A DNA stretch of 64,000 nt from Diphasiastrum complanatum (lineage: Eukaryota; Streptophyta; Lycopodiopsida; Lycopodiales; Lycopodiaceae). The notes below the pieces were generated by a model that saw only the letters and a program-made list of their open reading frames with translations, had not been told where the DNA came from and searched no databases. The translations under genes and the position numbers were made by a program. The stretch covers positions 19,416,149 through 19,480,148 of the forward strand of contig CM055106.1 in assembly GCA_029204225.1 (NCBI GenBank), read 5' to 3'. Of the stretch, positions 7,660 through 12,098 are shown one piece after another (the stretch's first letter is position 1; each line of letters begins with the position of its first letter).

Positions 7660-7763
7660 GAATTAGAATTATTATTATTAACGTCTTTTGGTACCCAAAG
7701 GTACATAAGACAAAAGAGAGTACAATTGTAACGGAGCATGGTCCGCGTCCGGACTTATTTACT
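7660..7763 (-). mobile_element. LINE copy A, 3'-terminal fragment
   Basis: Only about 104 bp of the 3' end of a LINE remains. On the minus strand it carries the family's terminal hairpin (7683-7711; arms GTCTT/AAGAC and GTACC/GGTAC), followed by a TTAATAATAATAA stretch and a degenerate TC tail. Its 5' end abuts the (GA)n tract at 7764-7836, which is the tail of copy B. Confidence 0.65.
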
Positions 7764-7836
7764 AGAGAGAGAGAGAGAGAGAGAGAGAGAGAGAGAGAGA
7801 GAGAGAGAGAGAGAGAGAGAGAGAGAGAGAGAGAGA
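7764..7836. repeat. (GA)n microsatellite, tail of LINE copy B
   Basis: About 73 bp of pure GA dinucleotide. On the minus strand it is the (CT)n 3' tail of LINE copy B and directly touches the truncated 5' end of copy A. Confidence 0.9.
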
Positions 7837-8738
7837 AAGCTTTATTAATGTCTTTTCCATGCCAAAAGCCATATAAGACTGGAGAGGTAGTACAACAGAG
7901 TAAATGGAACTCGGACGGGGCAGTGCCATCAACAAAAAACTAGACTAAAACTAGAACGTAAATCGCTTATGTAAAGAAAGCTCATCTCTCACGCAGGAGA
8001 GGAAATAGATGGCCGTAGCTCAAAACATCTCTCACGTAGGAGAGGGATAAGAATCTGAAATTTTAAGTTCTGCAATTTTAACCAAGACCTGGCGTCCGTC
8101 TCGAAAGAGAGTCCGGAAACCATTGGCCTTAGCATTTGCGATGATTTTCTTTCTCTCAGTCCATTGAATGGGAGTCAAGTCTTCATCCATAAAAATAGTA
8201 GACCCCTTCAGGCAGCCTCTTTTACGCAAAACCTTTTGATGAAGCAAAGCATCCTTGAATCGCAGAAACACTGTGGTGGGTTGGAGCTTACCCATCCAAG
8301 CAGCAGTTATGACATCCTCTTTGAGACCAAAGGTGGAATGAATAAAAGCATTTGCCTCAGCCATGAGGTCCTTACCCGCAAAAGAAGTTCCCCTAACCCT
8401 GACATTGAGGGCTTTGAGATCTCGTTTTTGATGTTCTTGAATAGATTCAGAAATAACCTGCTTAGCATAGTTGTGTCGAATCGCGATTCATTGAAAGAAC
8501 TGCGATTTGAAAGACCTTTTCGAAAAGGTCCGGTTCGAACTATTTTTTGACTGTTTGAACCATTTTAAAAAAAAAAAAAAAAACTCGTCGCCTCCTCGCG
8601 ACCTCCTGCAGCCTGCTCGTTACCTCCCCCTGCTCGTTACCTCCCCTTGGGCCCTGAAGCTTCCCAAATTTCTGCGCCTGAGAGAGAGAGATCCGAGACA
8701 TTGGACAAAATATAGATCCACGAGTCTGGAGAGAAATG

Positions 8739-8778
8739 AGAGAGAGAGAGAGAGAGAGAGAGAGAGAGAGAGAGAGAG
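8739..8778. repeat. (GA)n microsatellite in the MITE
   Basis: About 40 bp of GA dinucleotide in the interior of the 688-bp MITE. It is not adjacent to any LINE end. Confidence 0.85.
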
Positions 8779-8852
8779 GGGTGGAGTTGTGTGAGAGGGG
8801 TGGAATTGTGTGTGTCACGTGTGGCTGTTCAGTGTGTGTGACTATTGACAAA

Positions 8853-8907
8853 TGTGTGTGTGTGTGTGTGTGTGTGTGTGTGTGTGTGTGTGTGTGTGTG
8901 TGTGTGT
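8853..8907. repeat. (GT)n microsatellite in the MITE
   Basis: About 55 bp of GT dinucleotide inside the 688-bp MITE. Confidence 0.9.
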
Positions 8908-9836
8908 TTTTGTCATTTTCGTGAAATTCGAATCATTGAACATTTGCTAATTTACCACTAAATAACCATGCACATGGTACATTGGAATATGACATATGTA
9001 ATATGTAATATGAATGTTGTGACATTAATGTTTTAAAAAAAAAACCTAAAACCGATTCGCTGATTCGAACCTGGAGAAGTCGATTCTTTCCCGATTCAAA
9101 CTCGATTCAAACACGGTTCGAAAAGGCGATTCGAAAGGTACCCTCAAACATTGCTGCTTAGAACTCTTGAGCACATCGGCCCAAGAACTCTTTGATTGGC
9201 GAAGTTGCTGCTCCAAGGAGTGAACCCGTTCTTGCAGCTACTTTGCCTTGTTTTCTGAATCTGCATTGCCGCTTCCTTCTTCTCCATCTTTATCTGATTC
9301 CATTTCATTTTTTGAGGTAAGTAACATCAACCTCAAGAATGCCAACTTTACCCTGTAGGGCTAAGACCGTGTTCTCCAGAGTGGAGATTTGGAATGCTTG
9401 TTTCTTGATGATCGCAAGCAAGGATGCATTGTCCTCATGAAGAGAATCAATGATACGGGGAAAACCAAATAAAGATTCAGCTGAAAGAGAGGGAGACAAT
9501 GGGGGGGGTGAAGATGAAGGGGTGAAAGAGGGAGAGGAGGAAGAAAGAGTAGAGGGGGTAGTGGCAGTGGGAGAAGAGGTGTAGCTTGCGGGAGTGGAGG
9601 GTAGGGGCGAGGGAGAGGAAGCAGGAGAGGGAGGGGGCAAGGTAAAGGGATTGGGAGCTCTAATAGGGATGGCTAAGAAGACAAAGGGAGAAGGGGGAGG
9701 GGTTTTCTTCCCTTTCCGATTCACAGATTGCCAGTCAGCCATAGTACCACGGCTAGATACAGGTTTAATGAGGGAAAAGGTAGAGGAAAGGCAAGGACAG
9801 ACAAAAGGAAGGGCAGGGATAGCGAGGGGGCAGCAG

Positions 9837-9900
9837 GAGCTCAGGAGGCAAAAGGGAGAGCTCAGGAGGCAAAAGGGAGAGCTCAGGAGGCAAAAGGGAG
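9837..9900. repeat. Three tandem 21-bp units in the LINE 5' region
   Basis: The purine-rich unit gagctcaggaggcaaaaggga is repeated three times, almost perfectly, upstream of ORF1 of LINE copy B. Such monomers in a LINE 5'UTR can act as internal promoter repeats. Here that is only a possibility. Confidence 0.75.
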
Positions 9901-10172
9901 GGCAACAACAGGGACAAGTACATGTAGCAAGAAGACAAGGGCAGGAATAGGTAGGAGGGAGGTAGAGGGAGGGAGAGGGAGATGGGCAGGCAGTGGGACA
10001 GGTAGTGAGGGAGACAGGGCAGGAACAGGGTGCGATGACAGGAGGGGCAGATAGCGAGGCAGGTTAGCGATGGCAGGGTAGTGGTGGAGGGCCAGCGATG
10101 GCAGGGTAGCGATGGAGGGCAGCGAGCAGCAGCAGCAAGGTAGAGATCTCAGCAGCAGGGCGCCATCACTGC

Positions 10173-10265
10173 AGAGAGAGAGAGAGAGAGAGAGAGAGAG
10201 AGAGAGAGAGAGAGAGAGAGAGAGAGAGAGAGAGAGAGAGAGAGAGAGAGAGAGAGAGAGAGAGA
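10173..10265. repeat. (GA)n microsatellite, tail of LINE copy C
   Basis: About 93 bp of GA dinucleotide. On the minus strand it is the 3' CT tail of LINE copy C and touches the 5' end of copy B. Confidence 0.9.
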
Positions 10266-11298
10266 AGATTTTATTAATGTCCTTGAATACCCTAAGGTAC
10301 ATAGGACTAAGAAAAGGTACATGTCAAGTGTGCACATAGGAGCTTAAAGCTCAATCATCTATAAAACTAAATAACTGCAAATACAATGCATAAAGACAGC
10401 TGTCCCAGTCAGGATCCATAGCCTGGAATCATATATCACGATGCCCATCAGCATGAAAGAAATGGTGGATGGTATGCTGTGAAGGTGTGATTAGATGTGC
10501 CCTGGACCTCTGTCGCCGGATAGGCCGTCGGTGTCGTCTCTGCTGCCGTGGCGCTCTGGGCTGTGATCTAATAACTGACTGTCTCTCTGGCCGTCGGCAT
10601 GGTCTCTGATGCCGGTGCATGAAGGAGTCGGGAATCTCGGCCTCTCCATCTGAGTCGCTGCCTATGGGTACCTCGGATCTCTGTCTCCGACGGGATATGC
10701 ACTCATCAATGCTCAGCTGTGTCAGGGAATGTGTACCATCTAGTCTCCTCCTCCTCAGGTCTGACATCTCTCGGATCATCAGTGCGACACATCTAGGCCC
10801 TCATAAGATATCAAGGTAGAAAGTGTAACTGGGTGCTCTCTGAACAAGCAGTAGTACCGCCCCCGTATCTCATAGTAGGCTGGACATCTGAAGAGGAAAT
10901 GTGACTCGTCCTCAGTCTCATGCATAACACACATGCTACGAAGCCGGTCCTCTCGTGGGGTGCCACTGTATCTGCCAGTCTCAATAGCTAGCTGATGTGA
11001 AGAAACCCGAAAATGACCCATCGCTATCCGCAGACTATGTGATATACTCTTCAGCAAGTAACCATATACTATGGGGCAGCCAGCCGGATCAAGAGATAGA
11101 AAGTGTGTACGATAAAACTCACTCTTGGTCCCCAATGGACCCTGCCAAGTGATATGAAGATATGATCTGTAAAGGAGGCCTCTGATGTACTGGTGGGTGC
11201 CCGCAGGTAGATCACTGATCTGGATACCCAATGTGGAGAGGAGACGGCAAGCCTGGGAGTACCATGAGAAAAGGTGTCCCTTTGAGTGTAGGCGCCGG
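10266..11298 (-). mobile_element. LINE copy C, 5'-truncated, ORF2 C-terminus
   Basis: The minus strand carries the C-terminal part of a LINE ORF2. It reads GTHQYIRGLLYRSYL, SSHQLAIETGRYSGTP, then a zinc-finger-like segment MCVMHETEDESHFLFRCPA (C-x2-H-x6-H-x4-C) followed by YYEIRGRYYCLFR. This motif is the zinc-binding tail found after reverse transcriptase in many LINEs. An Arg-rich end follows (10430-10780). The reading frame breaks near 10800. The 3' end has the family hairpin (10279-10307) with ATTAATAAAATCTT, then the CT tail. The RT and endonuclease are absent because of 5' truncation at 11298, exactly at the tail of copy D. Confidence 0.8.
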
Positions 11299-11384
11299 GA
11301 GAGAGAGAGAGAGAGAGAGAGAGAGAGAGAGAGAGAGAGAGAGAGAGAGAGAGAGAGAGAGAGAGAGAGAGAGGGAGAGAGAGA
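11299..11384. repeat. (GA)n microsatellite, tail of LINE copy D
   Basis: About 86 bp of GA dinucleotide with one interruption. It is the minus-strand CT tail of LINE copy D and touches the truncated 5' end of copy C. Confidence 0.9.
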
Positions 11385-12098
11385 TCTTTATTAATGTCCT
11401 TTAGATACCCTAAGGTACATAGGACTAAGAAAAGGTATATGTCAAGTGTGTACAATAGGAGCATAAAGCTCAATTACCTACAAATAACAACTGCAAAAAT
11501 AAACTGCCTATAAGATGGCTGGCCTAGTCAGGGTCCATCAGCATGGTGTAGTGGATGTCCATCAGCCTGGAAGAAATGATGTATGGTGTGCTGTGAGGGA
11601 ATCACTGAATGTGCCACAGACCTCTGTCGTCTAGTGGGCTGTCGGTGTCGTCTCTGCTATCATGACGCTCTGGACTGTGACCTAGGACCTGACTGTCTTT
11701 CTGGGCATCGACACTGTCTCTGCTGCCTATGTCTGGAAGCATCTGGAATCTCAGCTTCTCCATCAGAATCAATACACAGAGGAACCTCGGATTTCAGTCT
11801 CCGACAGGATAAGCACTCATTGATGGTCAACTGTAGGAAGGTGTATTTGTATCCAGTATCCTCATCCTCAGGTCTGACATCTCTCGGATCATCAATGCGA
11901 CACATCTGGGGTCCTCATATGAGATCAAGGTAGAGAGTGTGGCTGGGTGCTCCCTGAATAAACAACAATATCTCCCTCGTATCTCATAGTAAGCTGAGCA
12001 TTTGAAGAGAAAATGTGACTCATCCTCGGTCTCATGAATATCGCACATACGAGAAAATCAGGCCTCTCATGGGATATCACTGTATTTGCTGGTCACAA
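11385..12098 (-). mobile_element. LINE copy D, 5'-truncated
   Basis: Same family as copy C. On the minus strand it has the zinc-finger segment MCDIHETEDESHFLFKCSA (12048 downward), then YYEIRGRYCCLFREHP, the stretch SYEDPRCVALMIREM, a short variable tail and the terminal hairpin (11395-11425). The 5' break, at about 12098, joins a gypsy integrase fragment, not a CT tract. Confidence 0.78.

Follow-up and report, generated by a model that had tools for sequence, protein, structure and literature searches.

A LINE family of the land plant Diphasiastrum complanatum that probably prefers CT microsatellites, its own tails included, as insertion sites

Results

The stretch of DNA analyzed here, hereafter the window, consists of 64,000 nucleotides of the Diphasiastrum complanatum genome (assembly GCA_029204225.1, contig CM055106.1, positions 19,416,149 to 19,480,148 of the forward strand). 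Besides ABCF, GT8, and copia genes, the window carries two rows of copies of a long interspersed nuclear element (LINE), in which neighboring copies are joined by tracts of the dinucleotide CT (Table 1). The larger row, at 7,660-12,105 on the minus strand, consists of four LINE pieces with pure CT tracts of 75, 93, and 73 nt between them. Read 5' to 3' on the minus strand, the pieces follow each other head to tail as A, B, C, D; the order D, C, B, A that had been given in the original prediction is that of the plus strand. The same prediction held that each copy begins at the tail of its neighbor, which is the case for B, C, and D, whose 5' ends lie at the CT tail of the preceding copy in three of three internal junctions, but not for A, which has no CT at its 5' end. 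The smaller row, at 53596-54408 on the plus strand, repeats the pattern as predicted, in the order CT, F, CT, G, CT, and the sequence preceding its first tract contains neither the 3' hairpin of the family, described below, nor a LINE tail.

Taken together, CT lies directly 5' of five of the six window copies that have a 3' end, A being the exception, and CT/GA tracts make up 0.9% of the window. A naive binomial calculation for five of six CT-adjoining copies gives 3e-10, a value that treats the tails as independent of the copies, which they are not. At least two of the CT-adjoining copies are truncated. Two plus-strand pieces, at 12845-13313 and 48849-49316, extend the element further upstream than B does, and the 5' end of G falls within the C-terminus of open reading frame 2 (ORF2).

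Table 1. LINE copies, CT tracts, 3' hairpins, and associated fragments in the window (UTR, untranslated region; RT, reverse transcriptase)
Feature	Position	Strand	Remarks
3' hairpin of D	7673..7718	-	
Copy D: about 90-nt 3' UTR fragment	about 7673..7763	-	imperfect CT tail preceded by TAA
(CT)n tail of C / target of D	7764..7836	-	pure CT tract
Copy C: C/T-rich 5' leader, ORF1, 3' UTR, no RT, holds insertion	7837..10172	-	ORFs 9305-10063 and 8032-8487
3' hairpin of C	7840..7886	-	
688-nt insertion within C, hAT-like	8466..9153	.	8-bp direct repeats CTAAGCAG at 8458-8465 and 9154-9161
(CT)n tail of B / target of C	10173..10265	-	pure CT tract
Copy B: 5'-truncated in ORF2, begins at CT tract	10266..11298	-	
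3' hairpin of B	10269..10314	-	
(CT)n tail of A / target of B	11299..11373	-	pure CT tract
Copy A: 3' part of ORF2 and 3' UTR, no CT at 5' end	about 11374..12105	-	78% identity to B over 729 columns; alignment start
3' hairpin of A	11386..11432	-	
Copy H: RT thumb/ORF2 fragment, interpreted as 5' part of A, inverted	12478..13312	+	homology to B ends at offset 312
Copy I: ORF2 fragment without 3' end	48849..49616	+	adjoins copia-like fragment (by reading)
(TC)n tract, read as original target	53596..53638	+	no hairpin match there
Copy F: truncated in 3' UTR	53639..53785	+	
3' hairpin of F	53732..53778	+	
(TC)n tail of F / target of G	53786..53851	+	
Copy G: truncated in ORF2, different 3' end	53852..54341	+	
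(CT)n tail of G	54342..54408	+	

The copies share a structured 3' end. Those of A, B, C, D, and F (five of the six 3' ends) align and fold as a two-part hairpin in which 98% of the cells are standard pairs and three pairs are changed on both sides, i.e., by covariation. As a control, the pairing partner was slid by 1-3 columns, which lowered pairing to 35-52%. A covariance model of the 3' end, searched against the whole window, returned those five hairpins and nothing else convincing. The 3' end of G differs from that of the hairpin-bearing copies.

The host genome was then used to establish how far the pattern extends. A 25-nt pattern of the 3' end, allowing up to 2 mismatches, was searched against the full assembly of 1,744,706,496 bases and gave 8,321 matches (4,093 and 4,228 on the two strands), while the reversed pattern gave 0. 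Thirty loci were examined with 1.5 kb on each side; these were the first places on contig C1 and not a random draw, and their flanks played no part in the choice. Within the 200 nt after the hairpin, 28 of the 30 loci have a CT tract (minimum 8 nt) and none has a GA tract. In the 1.5 kb upstream, a sense CT tract (at least 14 nt) is present in 9/30 loci and a sense GA tract in 0/30 (p = 0.004). Strand symmetry would predict equal numbers of the two. Genome-wide, CT was found 60-90 nt before the hairpin core in 61 reverse-strand matches, those listed being all distinct, in a count made for CT only; the corresponding forward-strand figure of 400 counts one place several times. The repeat tract is enriched at insertion sites, in the orientation that the tail requires.

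Rows similar to those in the window occur elsewhere. Of the adjacent pairs among the 100 matches listed, those no more than 5 kb apart share a strand in 15 cases and lie on opposite strands in 2, where a uniform distribution would give 1.2 pairs. Six pairs were fetched for their closeness and common strand, and by reading of the sequence the downstream copy begins at or beside a CT tract in all six. At L052 and L054 the copies between CT tracts are only 36 and 44 nt long, and at L053 other sequence separates the upstream tail from the CT tract. Within the 30 loci, LINE homology starts from the first base after the tail in four, in sense orientation at L026, L033, and L035 and as an inverted 5' part at L034. 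The following 1.35-1.5 kb contains a same-strand LINE in 11/30 loci and an opposite-strand LINE in 2/30, one of which is the inverted part at L034.

The 5' ends of the genomic copies were located in two ways. Of the 30 loci, 21 contain a mechanical homology boundary, and at L042, L043, and L045 (3/21) it directly adjoins CT; for comparison, CT/GA tracts occupy 0.29% of the sequence sampled on contig C1 (575 of 200,200 nt). By reading, ten loci have a usable 5' end, which is at CT in seven (L030, L036, L038, L042, L043, L045, and L051) and not at CT in three; for L030, L036, L038, and L051, the stretch between the tract and the first homology was taken as leader and ORF1 by its likeness to copy C. 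The loci outside these ten are L047, whose 5' end lies in imperfect CT-rich sequence, L024 and L049, and 17 others in which the 5' end is unclear or beyond 1.5 kb (L022, L023, L025-L029, L032-L035, L037, L039, L040, L044, L046, and L050). Some of the excluded loci have a non-CT boundary inside them (L022, L023, L026, L027, L028, L032, L034, and L050), where divergence, inversion, or later insertion look the same as a true end. A CT preference is present, and the share of copies that obey it is 7/10 by reading versus 3/21 mechanically. The contrary picture, in which most copies lie in unrelated flanks with no CT on the 5' side, is made unlikely by these first 30 loci, within the range set by the same two counts.

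The sequence before the tracts indicates what kind of CT is used. In the 74 nt preceding six of the 5' CT tracts, a LINE tail is found at L030 and L051 and none at L036, L042, L043, and L045 (L038 is cut off). In 200 kb sampled by position, the one confident copy, L005, is flanked by CT tracts, of which the 5' tract is preceded by other DNA and the 3' tract is its own tail. Copies thus seem to use plain microsatellites and their own tails alike.

Several further features were observed at these loci. At L045:467-888, a copy whose tail is (CTT)n has a CT tract of ∼420 nt 5' of it, and the sequence before this tract resembles, by reading, that before a CT tract in L002. L024 and L049 were considered as non-CT 5' ends or as a short interspersed nuclear element headed by transfer RNA (tRNA), and both were left uncounted, as by reading they adjoin sequence that resembles a long terminal repeat (LTR) and holds a tRNA-like stretch. 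This LTR-like sequence, at L049:1240-1400 and reversed at L024:690-810, begins TGTTGGAATATC after a G-rich run and may be compared with the Helenus/Ajax elements. Lastly, L036, L038, L051, and copy C combine, by reading, ORF1-like sequence and the common 3' end within ∼1.4 kb and seem to have no RT; the greater length of C is due to its insertion. A recurrent class of ORF1-only copies is possible from these sequences.

With respect to the encoded proteins, the window itself has no polymerase domain. At L033:2002-2982, however, the copy that begins directly after the tail of another encodes a LINE-type RT (RVT_1, 8.8e-27, Pfam), the best PDB matches of which are R2 and human L1 ORF2p, with R2 and L1 chains scoring alike. 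A GDFNAR motif is present in L005:6647-7141, where the match to Exo_endo_phos2 is weak (0.084, Pfam), and this stretch suggests an endonuclease of the APE type. The copies also carry the hallmarks of a LINE, namely 5' truncation, 5' inversion, and a common 3' end. The CT-joined copies belong to a LINE, or non-LTR retrotransposon, family. Pfam and PDB sequence searches with the ORF1 and ORF2 pieces of the window gave nothing useful, and scans of viral and genome contig collections found no relative. The AlphaFold model of the C-terminal part of ORF1, a part that we take to be comparable to vertebrate L1 ORF1p, has a mean pLDDT of 38.5.

A short motif recurs near the C-terminus of ORF2. Q..I..FF was found in 16 of 44 C-terminal regions, against a shuffle mean of 0.17, with the reservation that adjacent hairpins can share one region and some regions may have been counted twice. 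In 15 of the 16 the sequence is Q..I(T/M)SFF with basic residues behind it, and the remaining match is unrelated. Another motif, (A/T)ARI(T/A)(S/A)F(F/Y), occurs in 10/44 regions. Copies A and B carry QHTIHHFF. These motifs fit the PCNA-interacting (PIP) consensus. PIP-box-like motifs are located at the ORF2 C-terminus of B (about 10432-10653, minus strand), of A and of G, and in 15/44 genomic regions. Their sequence suggests PCNA binding at an unusual place in the protein.

The upstream end of the larger row appears to be rearranged. The homology of H to B stops at B offset 312, and that of A begins at approximately offset 300-315. Twin priming, as known for L1, typically leaves an inverted upstream part next to a downstream part in sense orientation. 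The copy at L034, immediately behind a tail, has this form as well. Since the homology of A starts about where that of H stops, A may be the 3' part of a 5'-inverted copy; A and H look like one such copy by their alignment, in which case the feature extends to 13312. A separate insertion of H was set aside, as its break coincides with that of A within ∼15 nt. Between A and H, 370 nt (12106-12477) are unexplained and include a coiled-coil-like stretch weakly similar to the ORF1 of C. In the comparison of this stretch with ORF1, 1 of 1000 shuffles scored as well, and coiled coils inflate such scores.

Other fragments lie within or beside the copies. The insertion in C contains CA and CT repeats of its own. 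H and I are plus-strand ORF2 fragments without 3' ends; by reading, gypsy-like sequence lies beside H and copia-like sequence beside I.

Discussion

We consider it very likely that the array is made up of copies from a LINE family and that (CT)n/(GA)n microsatellites are the preferred sites of its insertion machinery. In the mechanism that we propose, the LINE RNA would end in the conserved hairpin and a (CU)n tail, the counterparts of which are seen in the DNA. The ORF2 protein, probably with an APE-like endonuclease and RT, would nick the GA strand of a CT tract, and the exposed (GA)n 3' end would pair with the (CU)n tail and prime reverse transcription. Because a (CU)n tail can prime only on the GA strand, copies would be expected in the same orientation, and this orientation is observed. 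Synthesis of complementary DNA that stops early, or twin priming, would then leave a 5'-truncated or 5'-inverted copy that abuts the upstream half of the tract, as seen in the copies described. The new tail would in turn be a fresh CT target for the same or related subfamilies, so that rows may grow downstream; the junctions are observed, and the order of events is our reconstruction. Targets would include genomic CT tracts and LINE tails, with some insertions elsewhere. The original prediction, that a LINE targets (TC)n and renews the target with its own tail, is borne out in the CT preference (sense CT in 9/30 loci, GA in 0/30) and in the re-use of tails (4/30 loci and the six fetched pairs), while the idea that most copies start at CT agrees with 7/10 ends by reading but not with 3/21 mechanical ones. 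Chance placement was rejected on the binomial for the window junctions, the orientation of close pairs, and the upstream counts of CT versus GA.

It should be noted that a number of observations weigh against this reading. Eighteen of the 21 mechanical boundaries are not at CT, although many of these need not be true 5' ends. L031, L041, and L048 were judged to be real non-CT 5' ends, and the boundary of L041 is uncertain, lying at 1419 in one analysis and at 1028 in another and at CT in neither. No target-site duplication was seen at these three ends, and within a CT tract such a duplication cannot be scored. L042, counted as a copy at a CT tract, has LINE-like segments ∼400-700 nt before that tract, and the start of L005 at its tract was placed by reading, the stretch after the tract not being matched to the LINE. 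In the window, the A/H copy has no CT at its outer end, and A is the exception to the pattern.

The rows might be explained in other ways. In template jumping, RT passes from one RNA to the 3' tail of a second, such that a row is the product of a single event at an ordinary site and no target preference is involved. Template jumping is discussed for L1 ORF2p (PMC10830420). It, too, would produce a head-to-tail arrangement in which a tail adjoins the next 5' end, and it accounts for an outermost copy, A, that lacks CT. However, some copies begin at CT tracts that are not immediately preceded by a LINE tail (L042, L043, and L045 by homology, L036 by reading, and F at 53639), the members of a row differ from each other (A and B are 78% identical, and C is ORF1-only), and in the six fetched pairs the downstream copies appear, by reading, to be truncated and not full templates. 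That plain CT tracts and own tails are both used speaks against template jumping as the sole cause, and we regard it as improbable. An assembly artefact or rearrangement, by which recombination or misjoining between the CT tails of scattered copies produced the rows, draws some credit from CT tracts of up to ∼420 nt, which are hard to assemble. Exchange between two tails, though, yields a tail plus flank and cannot place CT in front of a truncated 5' end; ends of this kind must have followed a CT tract somewhere beforehand. Rows were also read in six other places, including those with the 36- and 44-nt copies between tracts, and we hold this origin to be very improbable indeed.

A different alternative concerns the choice of site. 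The enzyme may have no CT specificity, in which case breaks or gaps at fragile CT tracts would be captured by annealing of the (CU)n tail, independently of an endonuclease. The presence of a CT tract after the hairpin in 28/30 loci is consistent with such tail-driven choice, as is the shared orientation of close neighbors, which the pairing of tail and primer requires, and the imperfect CT preference fits loose targeting. We view this as possible but doubtful; it is a variant of the nicking step in the mechanism proposed above, and the likelihoods of the two overlap.

Should CT-directed insertion hold genome-wide, one retroelement would both produce a part of the CT microsatellites and insert into them, thereby renewing its own target, and microsatellite targeting would be extended to an abundant family (8,321 matches to the 3' end) in a land plant. 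The rows might let the order of insertion be read, as each new copy enters the tail of an older one. The origin of CT tracts is also of practical interest, given their wide use as genetic markers. As a tentative extension, the LINE lineage may live on a self-made target, its CT tails seeding and lengthening genomic CT microsatellites that full, ORF1-only, and other shortened copies use, and ORF2 could couple insertion to replicating or stalled CT tracts via PCNA by its C-terminal PIP boxes.

Several known systems share features with the LINE described here. HAL1 and HeT-A are elements of the ORF1-only type, a likeness to copy C, which has ORF1 and the common 3' end and no RT. Zepp of green algae has poly(A) tails. 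Among LINEs that insert into simple repeats, as here, Kibi is a member of the Tx1 clade, and not of the R1 clade to which it had been assigned in the original prediction, and has a (TC)n target, and Waldo is an R1-clade element with a microsatellite target. Togen of fish, which is related to NeSL, targets (TG)n, and some HERO elements also insert into simple repeats (PMC4640811). Elements of the HERO/NeSL type use a restriction-like endonuclease, whereas the endonuclease fragment here looks APE-like; site-specific LINEs with an APE-like endonuclease are stated, in the available text, to be confined to Tx1 and R1 (PMC13295347). Human L1 depends on PCNA binding and has its PIP box between the endonuclease and RT (PMC10830420), in contrast to the PIP-like motif at the ORF2 C-terminus here. 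The plant L1 lineage ME1 has a "stringent" 3' stem-loop; a conserved 3' stem-loop is common to both, but the motif differs, and the accessible part of the ME1 report does not mention microsatellite targeting (PMC3747384).

The original prediction knew of no plant case. A literature search, with most subscription papers outside its reach, found no land-plant LINE with a dinucleotide microsatellite target among the matches listed, and the statement stands with qualifications from green-algal Zepp (PMC8226300) and from L1-CS of Cuscuta (PMC8091179). L1-CS is, as here, a plant LINE lineage that prefers a repeat, 91% of it lying near CUS-TR24; its sites are L1-like and inside the satellite monomer, and self-tail targeting is not mentioned in the available portion of that paper (PMC8091179). 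Celine of poplar targets centromeres and not microsatellites, according to the part of its description at hand (PMC11288735). Zepp, of the L1 clade, inserts in a nested manner into its own copies, giving tandem rows made up mostly of 3' ends through 5' truncation (PMC8226300; PMC3446292), and in Coccomyxa forms one cluster per chromosome (PMC3446292). Self-stacking rows with 5' truncation are common to Zepp and the present LINE, which likewise inserts into the tails of existing copies in the same orientation. At least 100 matches are spread over ∼40 Mb of contig C1, so that a single cluster per chromosome is not seen; unlike those of Zepp, the rows here are short, scattered, and (CT)n-joined, and plain CT tracts are used as well. 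Microsatellite targeting is known in animals and self-stacking in green algae, and against the papers searched a land-plant LINE that prefers CT tracts, its own tails included, appears to be new.

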